Shown here piece by piece: positions 2,186 to 25,770 of a DNA stretch of 26,414 bases. The notes under the pieces were generated by a model. That model was not told the origin of the DNA. It worked only from the letters and a program-made list of their open reading frames with translations, and did no database searches. This stretch comes from a virus. The stretch lies in the IMG/VR virus record IMGVR_UViG_3300007276_000251, positions 1 to 26,414 of that record. One strand, 5' to 3'. The position numbers and the translations under genes were made by a program. Position 1 is the stretch's first letter; every line of letters begins with the position of its first letter.

Positions 2186-4492
2186 ATGCAAGGTTACGGC
2201 GGCAGCGCAGAACAATCTGGCGAACTTATAACGCTTGAAGACGCCGGTAAGGGACCGGCTGGCAAGGTTGCCCGGTGGGTGATGGAGCTAGACCTGTCGA
2301 GCAGCGTTGAAAAGTCTTGGCGGAAACGTGCCAAGGACGTTATCAACCGATACCGCGACGAAAACTCAAACGACATGAACGACCCAGGCCGATACTCTAA
2401 TTCGTGTCGCTACAACATTTTGTATTCTAACGTGCAGACGATTTGCCCTGCGCTTTTTAACCAGTCGCCAAAACCAGACGTGCGGCGCCGCTACCGTGAC
2501 AATGATCCGGTGGGCAAGGTCATTGCCGACATGTTGGAGCGAGCGTTGTCTTACTCGATGGACGACTACGACTTTGACCGCTACATGCGAATGGCAATTA
2601 AAGACCAGCAGCTAACGGGCCGAGGCGTGACGCGAGTTCGCTACGAGCCTCGCTTTACTGAAGAGGAAGACGAGGACGGCGAAAAGTACGACGAGTTAAA
2701 GTACGAAGAGGTGCGCTGGGAGCATGTGAACTGGGCCGATTTCCGACACGGCCCCGGTCGCATTTGGGACGAGGTTGAGTGGGTTGCGTTTTGCCACCTA
2801 ATGACAAGAGACGAGTTGCGCGAAAAGTTTGGCGAGATTGGCGACGACGTTGAGTTGGATTACGCGCCGGTCGGCATGGAAGACAAGGAAGGCGACACAG
2901 TCGCAGACACCTTTAAGCGGGCGACGATCTGGGAGATATGGTCAAAGCCCGACAAGGAGGTTGTGTTTATATCCAAGTCGCTAAAGGAGCGGCCTCTAAA
3001 AACTGAAGACGACCCGCTCGAACTAAAAGAATTTTTTCCGGTGCCGCGTCCGCTGTACCCCACAAGCAACACAGACAGCCTGACGCCAGTTGAGCCGTTC
3101 CGGTATTATCAGGATCAGGCTGACGAACTTGACAACCTAACTAAGCGCATTTCGGGCATTATTCAGGCTTGCAAGGTGCGAGGCATTTACGATTCGACAA
3201 TTACAGAGATGTCGAACCTTCTTGACGTAAGCGAAAACATCTTGATGCCAGCCACCGACGTTTTGCCAATTATGCAGGCGGGCGGATTGGAGCGAGCCGT
3301 CTGGATCTGGCCGATTGAAAAAATTGCTGGAGTTTTGGTTTATTTGTACAACCAGCAAACCACAGTCAAGACAACCATTTTTGAAATTACCGGCATTGCT
3401 GACATCATGCGCGGCTCGTCGTCAGCGTCTGAGACGTTAGGGGCGCAGCAACTGAAGGCGCAGTTTGGCACGATGCGGCTAAACGACATGCAGCGCGACG
3501 TGCAGCGTTACGCCAGAGACTTAGTCCGCATGGCTGCTGAAATTATGGCCGAAAAGTTTCAGCCTGACACGTTGCTGTTGATGACTGACGTAAAGCTGCC
3601 AACGCCTGAAGAAAAGATGCAGGCGCAGATGATAATGCAGCAGGGGCAGGCTCAAGGCCAGCCGGTGCCGCCGCAGATACAGGAAATACTTGAAAAGCCA
3701 ACCATCGAAGAGTGCCTGCAAGTCTTGCGCGACGATAACCAGCGTTGCTACCGCATTGATATTGAAACGGACTCGACAATTGCAGGCGACCAAGCCGCCG
3801 ATCAAAAGGCGGTCACCGAATTGTTGCAAGGCGTGGCGTCGTTTATTCAAAACGCGGGACCGGCGGTCGAGGCTGGCTATCTGCCGTTGGAGGCTGCCAA
3901 GTCAATGCTGATGATGGCAATCCGCCGGTTTAAGATGGGCCGAGAAGTCGAGGACGCGCTTGACATGATTGGCGAAGACGACGAGCAAGGCCAGTCAGAT
4001 CCGGCGCAGGCGCAGCAACAGCAGCAGGCGCAGCAGCAGGCGCAGCAGCAGGCTCAAATGGCGCAGCAAGAGGCGCAGGCTGCGGCGCAAGAGGCTCAAG
4101 TCAAGATCCAGATGGATCAGGCAAAGATGCAAATGGATCAGGCGGAAGCCCAATCTGACGCGCAGATTAAACAAGCGGAAATAGAATTAAAAAACCGCGA
4201 GTTGGCTCTAAAAGAATTTGAAGCGCAGAAGCCAGAGCCTGACCGGACTGTCGATCTGCTTATGGCACGAGAGCGTATGCAATTCGAAGCGGCAGAGGCT
4301 GACAAGCAGCGACAGGTTGAGTTAGCTAAGGCTGTAATGGCTCAAAGGGCGCCAAGCGGTGACGTGGCGGACGCGGCGTCGGCTATGTCTGAGGCGGCTG
4401 AAATTATGAGCCGCATTACATCGTCAATGGGTTCGCCAGACGTTGTCATAACTGAACAGGTCAGCACGGTTGTGCCGCCAGAGGTAATGTAA
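2186..4492 (+). CDS. Portal protein (P22-like)
   Basis: Dodecameric ring at the capsid vertex through which DNA is packaged and ejected. The 768-residue length is close to that of large P22-type portals (about 725). The N-terminal half has the style of this family: an early helix (VEKSWRKRAKDVINRYRDEN), NILYSNVQTICPALF, an acidic wing (EEEDEDGE), and later NLTKRISGIIQACKVRG. From about residue 605 to 730 the protein becomes a Gln/Ala-rich then charged coiled coil, as expected for a C-terminal barrel/tunnel extension. A GGGAG Shine-Dalgarno-like stretch precedes the ATG, inside the end of the upstream gene. It is placed between terminase and scaffold/capsid, the classical order. Confidence 0.93.
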   Translation: MQGYGGSAEQSGELITLEDAGKGPAGKVARWVMELDLSSSVEKSWRKRAKDVINRYRDENSNDMNDPGRYSNSCRYNILYSNVQTICPALFNQSPKPDVRRRYRDNDPVGKVIADMLERALSYSMDDYDFDRYMRMAIKDQQLTGRGVTRVRYEPRFTEEEDEDGEKYDELKYEEVRWEHVNWADFRHGPGRIWDEVEWVAFCHLMTRDELREKFGEIGDDVELDYAPVGMEDKEGDTVADTFKRATIWEIWSKPDKEVVFISKSLKERPLKTEDDPLELKEFFPVPRPLYPTSNTDSLTPVEPFRYYQDQADELDNLTKRISGIIQACKVRGIYDSTITEMSNLLDVSENILMPATDVLPIMQAGGLERAVWIWPIEKIAGVLVYLYNQQTTVKTTIFEITGIADIMRGSSSASETLGAQQLKAQFGTMRLNDMQRDVQRYARDLVRMAAEIMAEKFQPDTLLLMTDVKLPTPEEKMQAQMIMQQGQAQGQPVPPQIQEILEKPTIEECLQVLRDDNQRCYRIDIETDSTIAGDQAADQKAVTELLQGVASFIQNAGPAVEAGYLPLEAAKSMLMMAIRRFKMGREVEDALDMIGEDDEQGQSDPAQAQQQQQAQQQAQQQAQMAQQEAQAAAQEAQVKIQMDQAKMQMDQAEAQSDAQIKQAEIELKNRELALKEFEAQKPEPDRTVDLLMARERMQFEAAEADKQRQVELAKAVMAQRAPSGDVADAASAMSEAAEIMSRITSSMGSPDVVITEQVSTVVPPEVM
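4003..4100 (+). repeat. Imperfect GCGCAGCAG-type repeat coding the Gln/Ala tract of the portal
   Basis: A run of near-repeated CAG/GCG codons encodes alternating Gln and Ala residues in the portal C-terminal helix. Variants such as GCGCAGCAG recur many times with interruptions. It is a low-complexity coding repeat that could change length by slippage. It stays in frame throughout. Confidence 0.8.
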
Positions 4493-4493
4493 A

Positions 4494-4832
4494 ATGGGGT
4501 TAAGAGAATATAAGTCTAATTACGACGACATCGATTTCAGCCGGAAAGAAGATTACACGCCGCCTGCAAAGATCTCGTTTGCGTCAAAGCGGTCGTCAAT
4601 AGAGGCGCCCATGATTGCGGGCGACTACAAGCCATACGAGTGCCCCATAACGGGCAGGACGATTGACGGTCGCGTGGAACATCAGCAGAACCTAGAAAAA
4701 CACGGCTGCCGTGTTCACGAAAAAGGTGAATTTGAAGACGTTAAGAAAAACGGCTTAAAAGAGCGCAACGCAGAAATTGACCGGGCTATTGACAAGTCTG
4801 TTGACGCCATCGCGCACACGATAGACATTTAA
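4494..4832 (+). CDS. Small head-operon protein with Cys/His motif
   Basis: A 112-residue protein of unknown function lying one base after the portal stop. The centre reads YECPITGR at about 48-55, followed by EHQQNLEKHGC. The single Cys, then His, then His-Gly-Cys arrangement could form a one-zinc ribbon or treble-clef-like site, but this is inference. The C-terminal third is charged and helical. Similar small Cys/His proteins often sit between portal and scaffold in aquatic podoviruses. No enzyme motif is visible. It is probably co-expressed with portal and scaffold. Confidence 0.78.
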   Translation: MGLREYKSNYDDIDFSRKEDYTPPAKISFASKRSSIEAPMIAGDYKPYECPITGRTIDGRVEHQQNLEKHGCRVHEKGEFEDVKKNGLKERNAEIDRAIDKSVDAIAHTIDI

Positions 4833-4844
4833 TAGGAGGTATTT

Positions 4845-5882
4845 ATGTCTGACGTACAAGAACAAGCAGAACAACCCGTCATCGGGCAGTCTATGGATGA
4901 TTTTATGGGCGAGCAGTTTGACGCCCTTGAGGCAGAAGAAATTGAAGAGCAAGTCTCCGCTGACGTAGAAGAAAGCGTCGAGACTAAAACAGATAACGTC
5001 GAAACAGAGACTGCTTCGACTGAGGATGCCGTAGACGAAAGCGAGAGTGAACCTGAGACATCTCAGACCATCACCGCGCCTCAATCTATGTCTGCAAAAG
5101 ACCGTGAGTCGTTTTATGAACTTCCACCCGCAAGTCAGAAATGGATTGTGGATCGTGTGAAGGCTCAAGAAGGTGACTACACACGGAAATCTATGGAAGT
5201 TGCCGAGCAAAAAAGGTTCTACGAAAAGATAGAAAAGGCCATCGCGCCAAGAAGGCAACAGCTAGCTTTAGACGGAATGGACGAGGGAACGGCTATCGAT
5301 CAGTTGTTTGCCCTGTCAGATTTCGCTAGCAGCGACCCTGTTAACTTTACGCGCTACCTTTTCCAGCAACGTGGCATCCCATTGTCGGCGCTCGATCAAC
5401 CTGGCGGCCAGCAGGCTGCCGACCCTCAAATGCTTGCCATGCAACAACGTCTCCAAAACTTCGAGGGACATCTCGCGCAACAGCAGCAATTACAGCATCA
5501 AAAAACCACAGAAGCCGTGCAGACTGACGTAGAAAAGTTCTCTTCGGAAACTCCATTCTATCAAGAACTGCAACCTGAAATGGTGCCAATTGTAACGGCC
5601 CTTAAACAATCAAAGCCCGGCTTGTCTAATTTAGAATACTTGCAGATATCGTACAAAATGGCTTTAGCAGCCAACGAAGACGTTTCCGCAAAGATTGAAA
5701 TTGACCAGCGAGCTAAGAGTGAAAGCCAACGGATTGCAAAGGCGAAAAAAGCCGCCAAGCAAGCCCGAAAGGCAGGGGGCGTCAACATTAGGTCAACTGG
5801 TGCGTTACCGGCTGCTGCCAAGAAAGCAAAAAGCGTAGATGATTTTATCGGGGCATTGGTGGACGAACGCATGACAGCTTAA
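4845..5882 (+). CDS. Capsid assembly scaffold protein
   Basis: Predicted internal scaffold that templates prohead assembly and leaves before or during packaging. The 345-residue protein has a very acidic N-terminal region (about residues 1-75, rich in Glu, Asp and Val), a charged central region, a Gln-rich helix (about 180-225), and a Lys/Arg-rich C terminus (KAKKAAKQARKAGG) suited to binding the capsid inner surface. This charge layout and the position directly before the major capsid gene are typical of scaffolds. A strong AGGAGG at 4834-4839, five bases before the ATG, indicates high expression. No protease motif is visible. Confidence 0.85.
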   Translation: MSDVQEQAEQPVIGQSMDDFMGEQFDALEAEEIEEQVSADVEESVETKTDNVETETASTEDAVDESESEPETSQTITAPQSMSAKDRESFYELPPASQKWIVDRVKAQEGDYTRKSMEVAEQKRFYEKIEKAIAPRRQQLALDGMDEGTAIDQLFALSDFASSDPVNFTRYLFQQRGIPLSALDQPGGQQAADPQMLAMQQRLQNFEGHLAQQQQLQHQKTTEAVQTDVEKFSSETPFYQELQPEMVPIVTALKQSKPGLSNLEYLQISYKMALAANEDVSAKIEIDQRAKSESQRIAKAKKAAKQARKAGGVNIRSTGALPAAAKKAKSVDDFIGALVDERMTA

Positions 5883-8844: not shown

Positions 8845-11724
8845 ATGGCAAGCCAGGAAATGCTCAACGCGCTGTCTGAGGAAGATCCCTCCACGTTTCG
8901 GCGTGCGCTAAATTATGTAAAGGGGCTGAGAGGCAGCGGGGCGCCTCTTGCCGCTAGCGCAAACGAGGCAATGATGACGGCTCTTGGGCCTCAAGGCCGC
9001 AAGGCTGTCGCGCCGGTTGCCGGATTGGCAAACGTGTTTTCTTTAGGCGCTGACGTTAGAGACGCAATGGAGTTTTCCGGCGACACCTTAGAGAGCCTAA
9101 AGGCGGGAGACTTTGGAAGGGCAGGCAGTGACGCTCTTTATACCGCCGCTGCGCCTTTTGCCATGTTGCTGCCGGGATCTCTTGGCGGCTATAAAAAAAG
9201 TGCCGAATCTATGGCGGATAGCCTCATGGGCGTTGCCGATGACGTTGACCCGTCAATGCCTGCAAGTCTGCAAGGAAATAGGATATTTGCGGGGCAAAAT
9301 GCAGTTGGAGCGCCGCTCGACAAGTTGGATGAGGCCAAAAAATTAGAAGAAACGGGCGAAGCCGCAGAAACTGTGTGGGGTGCAACCGGCTGGTTTAGAG
9401 GTCAAGACGGAAAGTGGCGTTTTGAAATTGACGACAGCGCCGCTGTTGTAAATCCTATAAGCAAAAAAGGAGAGACAAGCCTGTCTGCGGCAATTTCTCA
9501 CCCAGAATTATTTGCTGCCTATCCAGACCTTTCTAATGTGCCTGTTAAATTAAGAAACAACGCCGTTTTAGGGTCAAGTTACACCCCGTCCACCGACAAA
9601 ATAAAAATTGGAGAATACGTTGGGCCGGACGGGCTGTCTGTTAAAGATAGGGCCTTAAAAATTAATGAAGACCTAACCGCAATCAATGACAAAATTCGTA
9701 ATGTTGCCGCGCAAGCGGGCGGAAACATTAAGGTTGATACTCCAGAATATTACGAATACATGAGATTGCTTCAAGAATTTAGAGACACAAAAAGGCTTGG
9801 CAAGCAAACATTGGGCACAGAAGCTACGCCAGAAAAGTCGGTGCTTTTGCACGAGATACAGCACGCTATTCAAAATCCTCGCAGAGAAGACTTTGCGTCT
9901 GGCGGATCTCCAAGCTCAATTCCCCCAGGATTGCGTCCTCGCGGTCTGTCTAAAAGAGAAACTTACAACCGCCTTGCTGGAGAGGTCGAGGCTCGTAACG
10001 TAGAAAAGCGTACGGATCTGACCGCCGCAGAGCGGGCGGACCTCCCGCCTCGCTTAACTGAAGATTACGACGCTAGCGATCAAATTGTTAATTTTAGGCC
10101 AGAACAGTCGTATATGGAATCTGCTTCCCCAGGCTTTGACGACGAAAGTTTCTCAGATATGGCAAAGCGCGGCAGGATTCGCGGCGCTCGGGACAGAGAA
10201 AAGAGCGTCAAGTCGCTTGCTGACGGATCAAGTCAGGCCCAGGATTTTCAGTTCACATTATTTGACGAGGTTTACGAGTCTGGAGAGTTTACAGAACGCC
10301 TGAAGGACATGGGACTCACAGTCAACGACAACATGATGGGCACCGTTATTGCTGGGAGGACACAGGCCGCCGCCGACCAAATGGCGGACTTGCAAGGAAA
10401 GATTTCGCGCGGAGAGAGTGTTAATGCCGTCGATCTTGGGCGTCTTTATGGGTACTCGGATGAGGATATTGCTGCATTTTACAAGCAGCGAGGGTTCACC
10501 GCTGACCGCTTTTTTGCCGACATTTCTGCTTCTTCGGGCTTTGACGATGCGGGTGAAGGCGCTACAATAGGGTTAGGCAGTGGAGGGCGAACTGTTCCCC
10601 CTAGCGGTGTTTCTTCTGAAGTGCCGCAACCGCTGCCGACATATCCTCAAGCTGGACAATACGAAATTAATACAAATCCTGCGGGCAAAGAGTACCCGTC
10701 AAAGGTTCACACGCCTGAAGAGGCGGCTATCGCCAAGCAAGTCGGCGCGGCGCAGCGCGATATTCAAGCGGGCAACTACACGCCTTATTTTGATGTTGGC
10801 AAGCGCACTGATGTAGATGTTGCAAACTACCCCGGCACCGGAGCGCAGACTACGCTTGAAGAAGCGCGTCCTAGGACTGCAAAATCTATTGAAACTTACA
10901 AAAGCATTATTAAAGATCCAGAAATTCGCAAGGCTTTGCAAAAAGCATTTGACGACGGCGCGTTAATTAACAATTCCGAAAACTGGTATTTTGTTGGACA
11001 GTTAGAAAAAGAGTTTATCGAAGTTCTTGGTGAGGAAGCAGGCCGCGCTGCGTTTCTTGAAAAATTTGCAAAGCCAATGGCCGCAACAACCGCTAAAGCT
11101 AGTCCGACTTCAAATTTCCGTATGGCGATGTACGGAAATTATTTGAAAGAAAACAATCTTGCGTTTCCTGACGCATCTTACAACGTTCCCTATCCCGTTG
11201 GCGGCTTTGGTGTAATTGGCAATTTGAAACAGCACGAAGCGTTGGTGCCAGGAGAATTTTTCTCTGCCAAACAAAATCCTAAACGTCACAATTTTGCTCG
11301 CAATTATTTAGGCGACAAATCTGTGCCAACAATTGACGCTCAAATGACCGAGGTTATGTCTGGCGGCAAGCTGCAACAGCCAAAAGGGCCGTCATACGCT
11401 AATTACGAACAGGCTATTAGTGAACAGTCTAAAAAAATTGGCGTTGAACCAAGATTTTTTCAAGAAGTTGTTTGGGCAGGCGCAAAGCAAGCTAAGGAGG
11501 GAAAGAAGTACCCTGGCTCGCAGCCTATGATTGAAATTATCAATCAAAGCATTGAGCGCACATCTAGGATTACTGGCTTGTCTCCAAAAGAAGTTGTTCG
11601 GCTTGGAATTATTGAAAGCAAAATTCCATTGTACGGTCTTGCGGGAATTACTGCTGGCGCTGGTGTGGCAGGAGCAGTTTCTCAAGATGATACTGACATG
11701 GTTTCTGCTTTAAGGGGTGCCTAA
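8845..11724 (+). CDS. Large polyvalent protein with HExxH zincin-like domain (LPD23-like)
   Basis: A 959-residue multidomain protein. Residues 182-197 (ending DGKWRFEIDD) and the block LLHEIQHAIQ at 334-343, carrying HExxH (H336, E337, H340), match the zinc-dependent, LPD-type domain of phage polyvalent proteins. A downstream GEVEARN at 379-385 likely supplies the third ligand. Middle regions (about 400-620) are charged and linker-like. Residues about 640-930 form another conserved-looking module, and a hydrophobic Gly/Ala segment lies near 940 (LYGLAGITAGAGVAGA). N-terminal hydrophobic stretches also occur. Such proteins are usually thought to be injected with the DNA; protease activity and target are inference. 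It lies between adaptor and hub, overlapping the next start (TAATG). Confidence 0.85.
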   Translation: MASQEMLNALSEEDPSTFRRALNYVKGLRGSGAPLAASANEAMMTALGPQGRKAVAPVAGLANVFSLGADVRDAMEFSGDTLESLKAGDFGRAGSDALYTAAAPFAMLLPGSLGGYKKSAESMADSLMGVADDVDPSMPASLQGNRIFAGQNAVGAPLDKLDEAKKLEETGEAAETVWGATGWFRGQDGKWRFEIDDSAAVVNPISKKGETSLSAAISHPELFAAYPDLSNVPVKLRNNAVLGSSYTPSTDKIKIGEYVGPDGLSVKDRALKINEDLTAINDKIRNVAAQAGGNIKVDTPEYYEYMRLLQEFRDTKRLGKQTLGTEATPEKSVLLHEIQHAIQNPRREDFASGGSPSSIPPGLRPRGLSKRETYNRLAGEVEARNVEKRTDLTAAERADLPPRLTEDYDASDQIVNFRPEQSYMESASPGFDDESFSDMAKRGRIRGARDREKSVKSLADGSSQAQDFQFTLFDEVYESGEFTERLKDMGLTVNDNMMGTVIAGRTQAAADQMADLQGKISRGESVNAVDLGRLYGYSDEDIAAFYKQRGFTADRFFADISASSGFDDAGEGATIGLGSGGRTVPPSGVSSEVPQPLPTYPQAGQYEINTNPAGKEYPSKVHTPEEAAIAKQVGAAQRDIQAGNYTPYFDVGKRTDVDVANYPGTGAQTTLEEARPRTAKSIETYKSIIKDPEIRKALQKAFDDGALINNSENWYFVGQLEKEFIEVLGEEAGRAAFLEKFAKPMAATTAKASPTSNFRMAMYGNYLKENNLAFPDASYNVPYPVGGFGVIGNLKQHEALVPGEFFSAKQNPKRHNFARNYLGDKSVPTIDAQMTEVMSGGKLQQPKGPSYANYEQAISEQSKKIGVEPRFFQEVVWAGAKQAKEGKKYPGSQPMIEIINQSIERTSRITGLSPKEVVRLGIIESKIPLYGLAGITAGAGVAGAVSQDDTDMVSALRGA

Positions 11725-22299: not shown

Positions 22300-22736
22300 A
22301 CGTCAACCAGTTGCGGGCGGATCTTGAACGGGACGAGGGATGCGTCTACGCAATCTATTTGGATCATCTAAATCTGCCAACGCTTGGCGTTGGACATTTA
22401 ATCACACAAAAAGATCCTGAACACGGCCAGCCTGTAGCGACAGAAGTCAGTGAGGCTCGTGTGATAGAGGCGTTTGACTTGGACATTCAGCACGTCTTAG
22501 ACGATTGCGACAATCTGTTTAATGATTTCAGTTCGCTTCCAGAAGCGGCGCAGCTTGTCGTTGCCAACATGATGTTTAACTTGGGGCTTCCAAGGTTCAG
22601 CAAGTTTAAGAAAATGATCCGAGCCATTGAACTTGGCGACTGGCAATCGGCAGCAGATGAGATGATTGACTCAAAATGGTATCAACAGGTGACTGCCAGA
22701 GCGCGGCGCCTTGAAGCGGTAATGAGATCAGTCTGA
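22296..22736 (+). CDS. T4-type lysozyme (GH24 endolysin)
   Basis: Muramidase that cleaves the glycan backbone of peptidoglycan at lysis. The 146-residue protein has the catalytic triad of the T4 lysozyme family: E14 (RDEG), D23 (YLDH) and T29 (LPTLGVGH), with the same spacing (9 and 6) as E11, D20 and T26 of T4. NMMFNLGLPRFSKFKKM and AIELGDWQSAADEM match the conserved C-terminal lobe. There is no signal peptide or SAR segment, so it depends on the upstream holin. It ends 9 bases into the opposite-strand hydrolase gene. Confidence 0.93.
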   Translation: MNVNQLRADLERDEGCVYAIYLDHLNLPTLGVGHLITQKDPEHGQPVATEVSEARVIEAFDLDIQHVLDDCDNLFNDFSSLPEAAQLVVANMMFNLGLPRFSKFKKMIRAIELGDWQSAADEMIDSKWYQQVTARARRLEAVMRSV

Positions 22737-23117
22737 ACTATAAAAGATGTGATTGCCGATTTTGATTGTTACAGTCAGTGACGACGCCCAGGCCGGGTTG
22801 ACACTTGTTGAGTGATAGTGCGTTGCGCCTCCGGTGATGTCATCGACGTGCAGCGACGCCTCCGCAATCACGCGAGAGGTCAGCCACGCAACGTCGTCAA
22901 GAATTGCCTCACGTTTCCCGTCACAATAAAAACTAAATTGGCAGTTGTTCAGTCCGACACGCCGCGCCTCGGTAACAACTTCGCAAAAGTTGTCGGGGAA
23001 CCGATTGTCAAGCACGCGGTTTTGCACGACGTGAGCGACCGCTAACTGCCCGGCGGCTGGCTCACCGCGAGCCTCAAAGTAGACAGCCAAGGCAAGACAA
23101 AATAGACCTTCAACCAT
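22728..23117 (-). CDS. SleB-type cell-wall hydrolase (Hydrolase_2)
   Basis: A 129-residue protein, the only minus-strand gene here. ALAVYFEARGEP carries the catalytic Glu (E15) of SleB/CwlJ lytic hydrolases. GQLAVAHVVQNRV, CQFSFYCDG, GATHYH and the final IGNHIFY complete the family pattern. It is expected to cut peptidoglycan, with no clear signal peptide (start MVEGLFCLAL). It converges on the lysozyme, overlapping it by 9 bases, and its start faces the palindrome/terminator region. No clear promoter or strong ribosome-binding site was found upstream, so its control is unclear. A second lysin in one cassette is unusual. Confidence 0.9.
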   Translation of the reverse strand: MVEGLFCLALAVYFEARGEPAAGQLAVAHVVQNRVLDNRFPDNFCEVVTEARRVGLNNCQFSFYCDGKREAILDDVAWLTSRVIAEASLHVDDITGGATHYHSTSVNPAWASSLTVTIKIGNHIFYSSD

Positions 23118-23945: not shown

Positions 23946-24304
23946 GCGCCAAGTCTTTTCAAGAGCATAAATTTTATCTGCTAGACGACGACATTCGTTT
24001 AATTGAACAGCAACTCGACCAAACCCCAGGCACTTGGGTTCCGTACTTTTATGCGGACCCTCGCGAAACTTTGTTTGGCGACTCTATGGGTCGCACCAAG
24101 GTTGTCCACAAGACAGCCGTTGAGCTTGTCTCTGTTGCCGAGCCTCTTACAAAAAAAGACGTTGAGAGCGCGACGCTGAGATTGTCTTGGTCGCGGTGGC
24201 GGATTAGACAAGGCTATCTCTCAAGCCAAAAGAAAAACGAGGAGGGCAAGACTGTCTACTTGCTAATGAAACCCACACTAAAGCCAAAGAGGTCACAAAA
24301 GTGA
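23939..24304 (+). CDS. Uncharacterised early protein
   Basis: A 121-residue protein from a GTG at 23939, which overlaps the end of the upstream peptide; another GTG at 23903 is possible and no ATG is available near the beginning. The N-terminal half is acidic (LLDDDIRLIEQQLDQ), and the C-terminal third is basic (LSWSRWRIRQGYLSSQKKN) with a final Lys-rich tail, suggestive of nucleic-acid contact. No family recognised. It precedes a Cro-like regulator with a four-base overlap (GTGA). Confidence 0.68.
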   Translation: MVSAKSFQEHKFYLLDDDIRLIEQQLDQTPGTWVPYFYADPRETLFGDSMGRTKVVHKTAVELVSVAEPLTKKDVESATLRLSWSRWRIRQGYLSSQKKNEEGKTVYLLMKPTLKPKRSQK

Positions 24305-24495
24305 GAAAGAAACCAGCATCTAAAATTGTTGAATTGCTGGGCGGCCCATTTCGTGCGGCTGCCGCGCTGGGAACTAGCCCCCAGGCAGTCTGCAACTGGG
24401 TCCGCCGAGAGACTATTCCGCCCGGCAGAGCCGCCGACATTATTCGCGTCGCTAAGTCTAACGGACACACGTTGAGGTTCGAGGAGCTTATATGA
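24301..24495 (+). CDS. Cro-like helix-turn-helix regulator
   Basis: A 64-residue protein from a GTG that overlaps the previous stop. IVELLGGPFRAAAALGTSPQ with AVCNWVRRETIPPGRA has the spacing of a Cro/YdaS-type helix-turn-helix: helix, turn at LGTSP, then recognition helix QAVCNWVR. Its small size, with little outside the HTH, matches Cro-like phage repressors that act as dimers on palindromic operators. Candidate operators are the palindromes near 23168 and 24923 and the repeat array after 24944; which one it binds is not known. The stop overlaps the resolvase start. Confidence 0.85.
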   Translation: MRKKPASKIVELLGGPFRAAAALGTSPQAVCNWVRRETIPPGRAADIIRVAKSNGHTLRFEELI

Positions 24496-24956
24496 TTGCA
24501 GGCATTGACGTTGGCATGACTGGCGCAATTGGAATGATTTACGACGACGGCGGCGGGTTCGTCTACGACATGCCAGTCTTCAAAAAGGAGGTCAACGCTC
24601 ATGCTCTTGCGGATCTGTTTCGAGAGTTACCCCCGGCGCACGTCTGGATAGAACAGGTTAACGCCTTTGGCATGGGTCGCACGTCGGCTTACAACTTTGG
24701 GCAGGGCGTTGGCGCCATTAAGGGCGTGCTGGCGACGCTGGCTATCCCTCACTCTCTTGTCACGCCAGCCAAGTGGAAAAAGCACTACGGGTTGGGCCGC
24801 GACAAGGATCAGAGCCGGGCGTTGGCGTCTCGGCTGTACCCTCAAATAGCATCTGAATTTGCCCGCAAGAAGGATGACGGCAGGGCGGAGGCGCTGCTGA
24901 TCGCGCAATTTGGAAAACAGACCCTGACAATGTCAGGAAAGTCAGCCGGAAACTAA
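24492..24956 (+). CDS. RuvC-like Holliday junction resolvase
   Basis: Endonuclease that resolves four-way DNA junctions formed during phage recombination and replication. The 154-residue protein has the RNase H-like RuvC acidic set: D6 (GIDVGMTGA), E54 (VWIEQV), and D129/E133 in KKDDGRAEALLIA. SAYNFGQGVGAIKGVL and TPAKWKKHYGL with KDQSRALA are further family hallmarks. It starts in an ATGA overlap with the Cro-like gene. The stop codon falls within the first copy of the repeat array, so the gene end and repeats are superimposed. The last residues (SGKSAGN) are likely flexible. Confidence 0.92.
   Translation: MIAGIDVGMTGAIGMIYDDGGGFVYDMPVFKKEVNAHALADLFRELPPAHVWIEQVNAFGMGRTSAYNFGQGVGAIKGVLATLAIPHSLVTPAKWKKHYGLGRDKDQSRALASRLYPQIASEFARKKDDGRAEALLIAQFGKQTLTMSGKSAGN
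24923..24937. promoter_or_regulatory. 15-bp palindrome in the 3' end of the resolvase gene
   Basis: CCTGACA-A-TGTCAGG is a perfect 7-bp inverted repeat around one central base. It lies 8 bases before the repeat array and is embedded in coding sequence (TLTMSG). It has the size of a dimeric repressor operator. It may be chance, but its place next to the array and between two regulator genes makes it worth listing. Confidence 0.5.
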
Positions 24957-25095
24957 TGGCCGTGGCCGGAAACTATCGAGGTCGGCCCGTAATTAGTTTC
25001 AGGCCACTCTTTTGGCAGTTTTCCGCCGCTTTTGGCTGGCAACTGTAGCAATGGCCGGAAACTATCGAGAACGGCTGGAAACTAATTTCCGGCCA
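24944..25095. repeat. Cluster of GGCCGGAAACTA repeats (origin or operator candidate)
   Basis: Six clear copies: GCCGGAAACTAA at 24946-24957, TGGCCGGAAACTATCGAG at 24963-24980 and again at 25052-25069 (exactly the same 18 bases, 89 bases apart), a reverse copy at 24991-25006, a forward copy GGCTGGAAACTAATT at 25073-25087 and a reverse copy at 25084-25095. Weaker copies are seen at 25013-25027 (reverse) and 25034-25048. The last two strong copies form a 9-bp hairpin with CTAA loop (25073-25094). The copies at 24963 and 24991 form a larger inverted repeat. The stretch between stop 24956 and ATG 25121 is otherwise without genes. Confidence 0.85.
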
Positions 25096-25120
25096 CATTT
25101 TGAAAAGTTGGGAAAGAAAA

Positions 25121-25570
25121 ATGAGCACAATTGATATCGTTGATCTTCTTGAACTAGCGCGAGCCGAGATACTGCGGCTTCGCAAGCCGCTCCGCGTGGA
25201 GTATGGAGACGCGCCCCACCCGGCGGAGAAAAATTCTGTGCATCCCGACGTATCGGCGGGCTGGAACAGCCCGTTGCGGCTGAGGTTAAACGCCATAAAG
25301 ATGAGCGCAGTCGGACTTACTGCGAATCTTAGAGTTAACGGGGTGACAAAATCTGCCGAGACAATTCGCCGGTATATCACGGGCGTCTCGGTCCCGTCCG
25401 AAGAGATTAAAAACCACATCAGTTCAATTGTTAACGTTCCTGTCTGCGATCTCTGGCCGCCGTACATTCCGTCCTGTAGCTTGAGAGGAGCGTCAGCCAA
25501 GACACAGGAAATAGAAAAAACTCATATGATGCTTACAAAAGCAAGGCAAGATGCATTTAAGGGTAGCTAA
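25121..25570 (+). CDS. Helix-turn-helix DNA-binding protein
   Basis: A 149-residue protein from the ATG at 25121; a TTG at 25100 in frame is less likely because it lies closer to the repeats. The N-terminal 55 residues are charged and helical. Residues about 56-112 (LNAIKMSAVGLTANLRVNG, then KSAETIRRYITG, and IVNVPVCDLWP) have the order of a XRE/Ner-type HTH domain, with the final D-L-W-P typical of that group. It directly follows the repeat array, which suggests that it binds there as regulator or replication initiator. No replication motif was found. Confidence 0.72.
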   Translation: MSTIDIVDLLELARAEILRLRKPLRVEYGDAPHPAEKNSVHPDVSAGWNSPLRLRLNAIKMSAVGLTANLRVNGVTKSAETIRRYITGVSVPSEEIKNHISSIVNVPVCDLWPPYIPSCSLRGASAKTQEIEKTHMMLTKARQDAFKGS

Positions 25571-25575
25571 TTAAC

Positions 25576-25770
25576 ATGCCTAAAAAGCATGAACACATCG
25601 GCACCGTGTTTGTTAGCCACGATAAGGACGCAGACATCACGACTGCGCGATGCGAATGCGGCGCCCTGTGTTCGTTTCCTACGCTTGCAAAAGACCGCAC
25701 CTCCGCTCAGTCGGCTCACGGTGCTAAGGCGGTCAAAGACAACGGGTGGACAATAAATGAACGAGACTGA
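25576..25770 (+). CDS. Small uncharacterised protein with Cys-x-Cys
   Basis: A 64-residue protein with a CECGALC segment around residues 26-32 and several His, which could bind a metal ion. No family recognised. It begins 5 bases after the HTH gene stop and overlaps the following gene by 14 bases, within the same operon. The ribosome-binding sequence is weak. Likely real, given conserved spacing and absence of other frames, but function is open. Confidence 0.65.
   Translation: MPKKHEHIGTVFVSHDKDADITTARCECGALCSFPTLAKDRTSAQSAHGAKAVKDNGWTINERD

Follow-up and report, generated by a model that had tools for sequence, protein, structure and literature searches.

A cluster of short repeats lies directly behind the ruvC-like gene of an uncultured phage, and it raises the question of whether such a cluster is a replication origin, a multi-site operator or something else. 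The window analysed here is the whole stretch of 26,414 bases, positions 1 to 26,414 of IMG/VR virus record IMGVR_UViG_3300007276_000251. Its genes run from terminase through portal, head, tail and lysis to early genes on the + strand, and the portal has distant kin (<40% identity) in several cultured phages (Bradyrhizobium, Rhizobium, Myxococcus and others). Two further reading frames of the window are recorded here in passing: one at 22728-23117 (- strand), opposite to and just 5' of the early genes, which by eye resembles a SleB-type cell wall hydrolase, and one of 959 aa at 8845-11724, only a short stretch of which matches very large PHROGs of unknown function.

The repeat array and its neighbours

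The early operon that contains the array has its genes in one direction, and the array immediately precedes a start codon. An earlier note on this DNA had placed it near a Cro-like gene and beside a RuvC-like gene, and both are present. The former (24301-24495, +, GTG start) encodes a 64-aa Cro/YdaS-like HTH protein that matches PF14549 and PF15943 above cut-off (P22_Cro/YdaS), falls in the PHROG class of transcriptional regulators and is kept in most relatives; the latter, which overlaps it (24492-24956, +), encodes a RuvC-like Holliday junction resolvase of 154 aa (phrog_1770, E 3e-28). The gene that follows (25121-25570, +) had been taken to encode a further HTH protein, which was not confirmed by Pfam, PHROGs or an uninformative, low-confidence structure model (pLDDT 44); its 149-aa product has no Pfam, PHROG or PDB match and is possibly DNA-binding. 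This gene is exchangeable, and 3' of it gene-order comparison places a small Cys-containing protein (25576-25770, +) in the array-bearing phages. The gene-free gap between ruvC, whose stop codon is 24954-24956, and the exchangeable gene is 164 bp long (24957-25120). The array had been described as lying in about 150 gene-free bp, which holds for most of it; the first copy (24944-24955) is contained in the last codons of ruvC.

We found by weight-matrix scan that the array consists of a 12-nt half-site (consensus GGCYGGAAAYTA) occurring nine times, in both orientations, between 24944 and 25094, with eight strong copies and one weak; at least six had been claimed. On the + strand these are site 1 (AGCCGGAAACTA, 24944-24955), site 2 (GGCCGGAAACTA, 24964-24975), the weak site 3 (GGCCCGTAATTA, 24984-24995), site 6 (GGCTGGCAACTG, or GGCTGGAAACTG in relatives, 25034-25045), site 7 (GGCCGGAAACTA again, 25053-25064) and site 8 (GGCTGGAAACTA, 25073-25084), and on the - strand site 4 (GGCCTGAAACTA, 24994-25005), site 5 (GGCGGAAAACTG, 25016-25027) and site 9 (GGCCGGAAATTA, 25083-25094). 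The spacing between half-sites is 10 or ~20 bp. Sites 3 and 4 together form a 22-bp palindrome (24984-25005), as do sites 8 and 9 (25073-25094), the second ending 26 bp 5' of the next ATG. There are two 50-nt units 89 bp apart, each with the pattern + (0), + (+20), - (+30) and a T run at its end, with one - and one + copy in between; the exact 18-base repeat previously noticed at this distance is TGGCCGGAAACTATCGAG, at 24963 and 25052. Inverted repeats define three potential hairpins, H1 (24962-25007, 14-nt arms, 18-nt loop), H2 (25016-25045, 12-nt arms, 6-nt loop) and H3 (25052-25095, 13-nt arms, 18-nt loop), and the last of these agrees with the near-perfect hairpin reported at the end of the array, as 25052-25064 and 25083-25095 pair at 12 of 13 positions. 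The array as a whole has terminal inverted repeats (24962-24975/25083-25096). The conserved module is bordered on the left by the 15-nt palindrome CCTGACAATGTCAGG (24923-24937), which falls within the final part of ruvC. This possible extra operator has no other match in the window and is the same in the relatives L004-L007 in all but its first base. On the right, a leader with a possible GGGAAAG ribosome-binding site (25095-25120, +) runs up to the next start codon.

The repeat array is real and far beyond chance: 24940-25100 contains 67 repeat pairs, whereas 100 dinucleotide shuffles average 0.6 and reach 7 at most. It is the most repeat-dense place in the window, the runner-up (3965-4181) being Gln/Ala-rich coding sequence. 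The site centres are in phase at a period of 9.9 bp (coherence 0.89, P = 0.0007 against uniform placement; P = 0.007 with the first six sites only, as the second 50-nt unit may be a copy of the first). Coherence is only 0.17 at 10.5 bp, and thus helical register is kept between neighbours and not over the entire array. Two small open reading frames in the array (MAVAGNYR... from 24956 and MAGNYRERLETNFRP... from 25051) were rejected as coding, as their variable codons are mostly replacements (about 3 silent and 5 replacement, by eye from the alignment).

Distribution and conservation

The weight-matrix scan found no second GGCYGGAAAYTA cluster in the window, and no further array was found in those relatives' contigs that run past the right end of the window, from the primase through the terminase genes (L006, L094-L096); in L094-L096, the primase gene holds the only other GGCYGGAAAYTA site found. 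Even scatter of the core through the genome, which the earlier note had named as counter-evidence, is therefore not seen, the window and its relatives' contigs having a single cluster. Three DNA patterns found no array in other viral contigs, and one pattern gave no convincing match in 84,980 prokaryote genomes; the pattern matches L090-L093 were taken as chance (a 20-bp tandem repeat of Tannerella in L092, and two spaced copies after a gene in L093). No similar DNA was found in known phages, and a search of the literature on phage P4 crr/iterons and on podovirus RuvC-linked repeats yielded nothing else of relevance.

Two relatives, L002 and L003, are identical to the window across the array region; L003 also has, at 4466-5287, a phosphoadenosine phosphosulfate reductase-like auxiliary gene downstream of an exonuclease-like gene. 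Conservation of the array in phages that keep the flanking genes, as the earlier note would have it, extends to relatives whose RuvC is 94% identical (L004-L007, which keep the whole array; L088 keeps it for the part that its contig covers) and stops there. The phages L008-L043, with RuvC 57-73% identical, lack both the exchangeable slot and the array; their post-ruvC repeat score is at most 8, and the next gene, often DUF6378 or exonuclease-like, closely follows ruvC. As judged from the sequences compared, the array is a property of a single clade and of a single junction, and is not tied to any one of the genes that follow it.

Between the window and L006, 35 of 151 third positions of ruvC differ, compared with eight of 177 positions in array and leader (P = 8e-7) and two of 118 in the right half of the array plus leader (P = 5e-8 against ruvC third positions). 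The 26-nt leader shows no difference among the window, L004, L005 and L006, even though the gene that follows it differs: behind the identical leader the window has the gene for the 149-aa protein, and other clade members have a gene for an endonuclease-like protein, which matches phrog_9019 and phrog_945 weakly and was found in the array clade only. Two unrelated genes are thus preceded by an array and leader that agree fully or almost fully as far as the ATG, and the swap occurs exactly at the ATG. Homologues of the 149-aa gene in L083-L085 are found without the array. L004-L007 have the array but not this gene at the locus, and L083 and L084 have the gene but no array, so that the 149-aa protein cannot be a required partner. 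The divergence of the array, far below that of synonymous sites, points to selection, and the array is a real, clade-specific repeat module that is probably selected. However, half-sites are no better conserved than spacers (8 of 104 versus 3 of 47 positions variable), so that the conservation could stem from a constraint on the whole sequence, as RNA, or from recent recombination. A control-type module that selection maintains while different genes come to occupy the position behind it would be a compact case of phages perhaps plugging new genes into a standing regulatory slot.

Regulation, replication, RNA or mobility

We consider the array to be, with a probability of roughly 45%, a clade-specific cis-regulatory, protein-binding (operator-like) intercistronic module between ruvC and the exchangeable slot. 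Spacing in multiples of about 10 bp together with palindromic composites favours protein binding to DNA, and the two palindromes are, as in operators, clustered near a gene start. A phage or host DNA-binding protein would bind the GGCYGGAAAYTA half-sites cooperatively; at 10 or ~20 bp, neighbouring half-sites would be presented on almost the same helical face, and each of the palindromes 24984-25005 and 25073-25094 would accommodate a dimer. How far the sites are occupied would control transcription through the junction, and thereby the expression of whichever gene fills the slot. We infer the binding, the identity of the binder and the regulatory effect alike.

That the array is instead a replication origin, or an auxiliary initiator-binding region of iterons and hairpins working with the Prim-Pol/helicase of the clade (674 aa, with Prim-Pol, PriCT_2 and AAA_25 domains; L094:1847-3871), seems unlikely. 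Multiple similar repeats of roughly 20 bp at a regular spacing (10 or ~20 bp), hairpins, a replication/recombination neighbourhood and a DNA-fold z of -3.2 speak for it, as do other phages of the group in which direct repeats and a hairpin, with a motif peculiar to each phage, come immediately after the primase-helicase gene, and the origin stem-loop of plasmid pRN1, which still works after being moved elsewhere in the plasmid (PMC4234260). However, no initiator gene is adjacent (the primase-helicase starts ~4.4 kb downstream in L006), and the array is absent from L008-L043, several of which share the Prim-Pol/AAA_25 gene. Nor does GC skew show an inflection at the array, a measure that is uninformative here as nearly all genes lie on one strand.

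A better origin candidate is the post-primase spacer, which the window clade retains. In many relatives the spacer directly behind the primase-helicase gene contains direct repeats and a hairpin whose arms carry that repeat, the motifs differing between phages. Such post-primase repeats were observed at L011:8244-8427, L013:7128-7311, L020:8437-8616, L033:7482-7723, L036:5533-5727, L039:10802-10987 and L042:10633-10830, and from 2680 in L113, 6357 in L114 and 3082 in L119. The direct repeats, mostly with a hairpin, behind the primase-helicase in many uncultured phages are likely replication origins. Motifs like AAGYNNTTGAAA (at most one mismatch) occur in 16 of 18 post-primase spacers with a full-length AAA_25-type protein, including L094 and L095, and in none of seven where the helicase half differs, a contrast whose p-value overstates the support because the motif was picked after viewing the spacers and several entries are near-duplicates. 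AAGYNNTTGAAA was seen in both orientations at L094:3871-4050 and L095:4042-4220 and in the post-primase spacers of L013, L099, L101, L109, L110 and L111. The clade thus has the usual spacer with AAGYNNTTGAAA, like phages without the ruvC array, and the spacer has no GGCYGGAAAYTA site. With a better candidate elsewhere in the same clade, the origin half of the earlier note's alternative is weakened and the operator-like module becomes the likelier; the array is probably not the main origin. It is very unlikely to be a second, ruvC-linked initiator-binding or cruciform-forming (crr-like) region working together with the post-primase origin and making use of the neighbouring resolvase.

It is also doubtful that the array acts as RNA, with three consecutive hairpins in the ruvC-slot transcript serving as attenuator, processing or mRNA-stabilising elements and + copies competing for - copies as pairing partners. 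Hairpins H1-H3, the T run that closes both copies of the 50-nt repeat, conservation that spans spacers and leader and not half-sites alone, and a compensatory C-G to U-A change (24973/24996) in L005 are consistent with such a role. Against this, the RNA-fold z is only -1.75, slightly better than shuffles; paired cells amount to 89.1% compared with 88.6% in shuffles; and the compensatory pair is a single one among four sequences, not above shuffles, while five cells break an otherwise formed pair. There is no convincing Rfam match and no terminator call within the array, and the 10/20-bp spacing is left unexplained. A type III toxin-antitoxin RNA was considered and rejected, as the gene downstream can be swapped and has no match among toxin families.

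The terminal inverted repeats, the gene swap exactly at the ATG and the restriction to one clade would fit a palindromic or mobile repeat (REP/BIME- or MITE-like) without a regulatory role, or a hot spot of recombination favouring slot-gene swaps, its hairpins being cruciform substrates for the adjacent resolvase. We regard this as quite improbable: the dispersed copies typical of REP/BIME or MITE elements were found neither in the window, nor in the clade's contigs, nor with three patterns in other viral contigs, and none was convincing in the prokaryote genomes; by eye there is no flanking target-site duplication; and divergence far below synonymous sites points to selection.

Comparison with known systems

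REP/BIME elements consist of palindromic units of alternating orientation and are intercistronic between co-directional genes. The array shares with them palindromic units of alternating orientation between co-directional genes and differs in being confined to a single locus, with no dispersed copies found. Phage Cro/CI-type repressors act at multi-site operators with palindromic half-sites, and the array resembles these in its palindromic half-sites, its cooperative-looking spacing and the Cro-like gene nearby. Unlike them, it has nine half-sites in one cluster, and no sigma-70-like promoter was found at it, though the promoter type of the host may differ from sigma-70. Moreover, the Cro-like protein is present in phages with and without the array, and its recognition helix, SPQAVxNW or very similar, is conserved in relatives that lack the array sites.

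Like the array, the ori/crr of phage P4 has short repeats in both orientations beside replication genes. The P4 alpha protein binds its origin repeats with a winged-helix domain (PMC4234260). The array differs from this system in lying ~4.4 kb from the primase gene, in having a motif that is absent from the post-primase spacer and in that initiator binding to it is hypothetical. The iterons of RSF1010 are 20 bp long, and the helicase of the clade carries an AAA_25 domain, a type related to RSF1010 RepA. The array differs from RSF1010 oriV in the mixed orientation of its repeats and its distance from a replication gene, and no RepC-like initiator was identified; oriV combines iterons with ssi hairpins (PMC4234260), as the array combines repeats with hairpins.

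The origin of pRN1, which has a replication protein of the same Prim-Pol class, is a stem-loop no more than 166 bp downstream of the replication gene, and an origin behind the replication gene has also been proposed for the BIP-1/BPP-1 phages (PMC4234260). The primase of the window clade matches that of BPP-1 (29.7% over residues 2-330), whose gene order likewise leads from a Cro-type regulator via the primase to the small terminase subunit, and the spacer behind the clade primase is hairpin-forming. The pRN1/BPP-1 precedent thus points to the post-primase spacer and not to the ruvC array, and the comparison indicates where a group of uncultured phages is likely to have its origin, namely behind the Prim-Pol/helicase gene.
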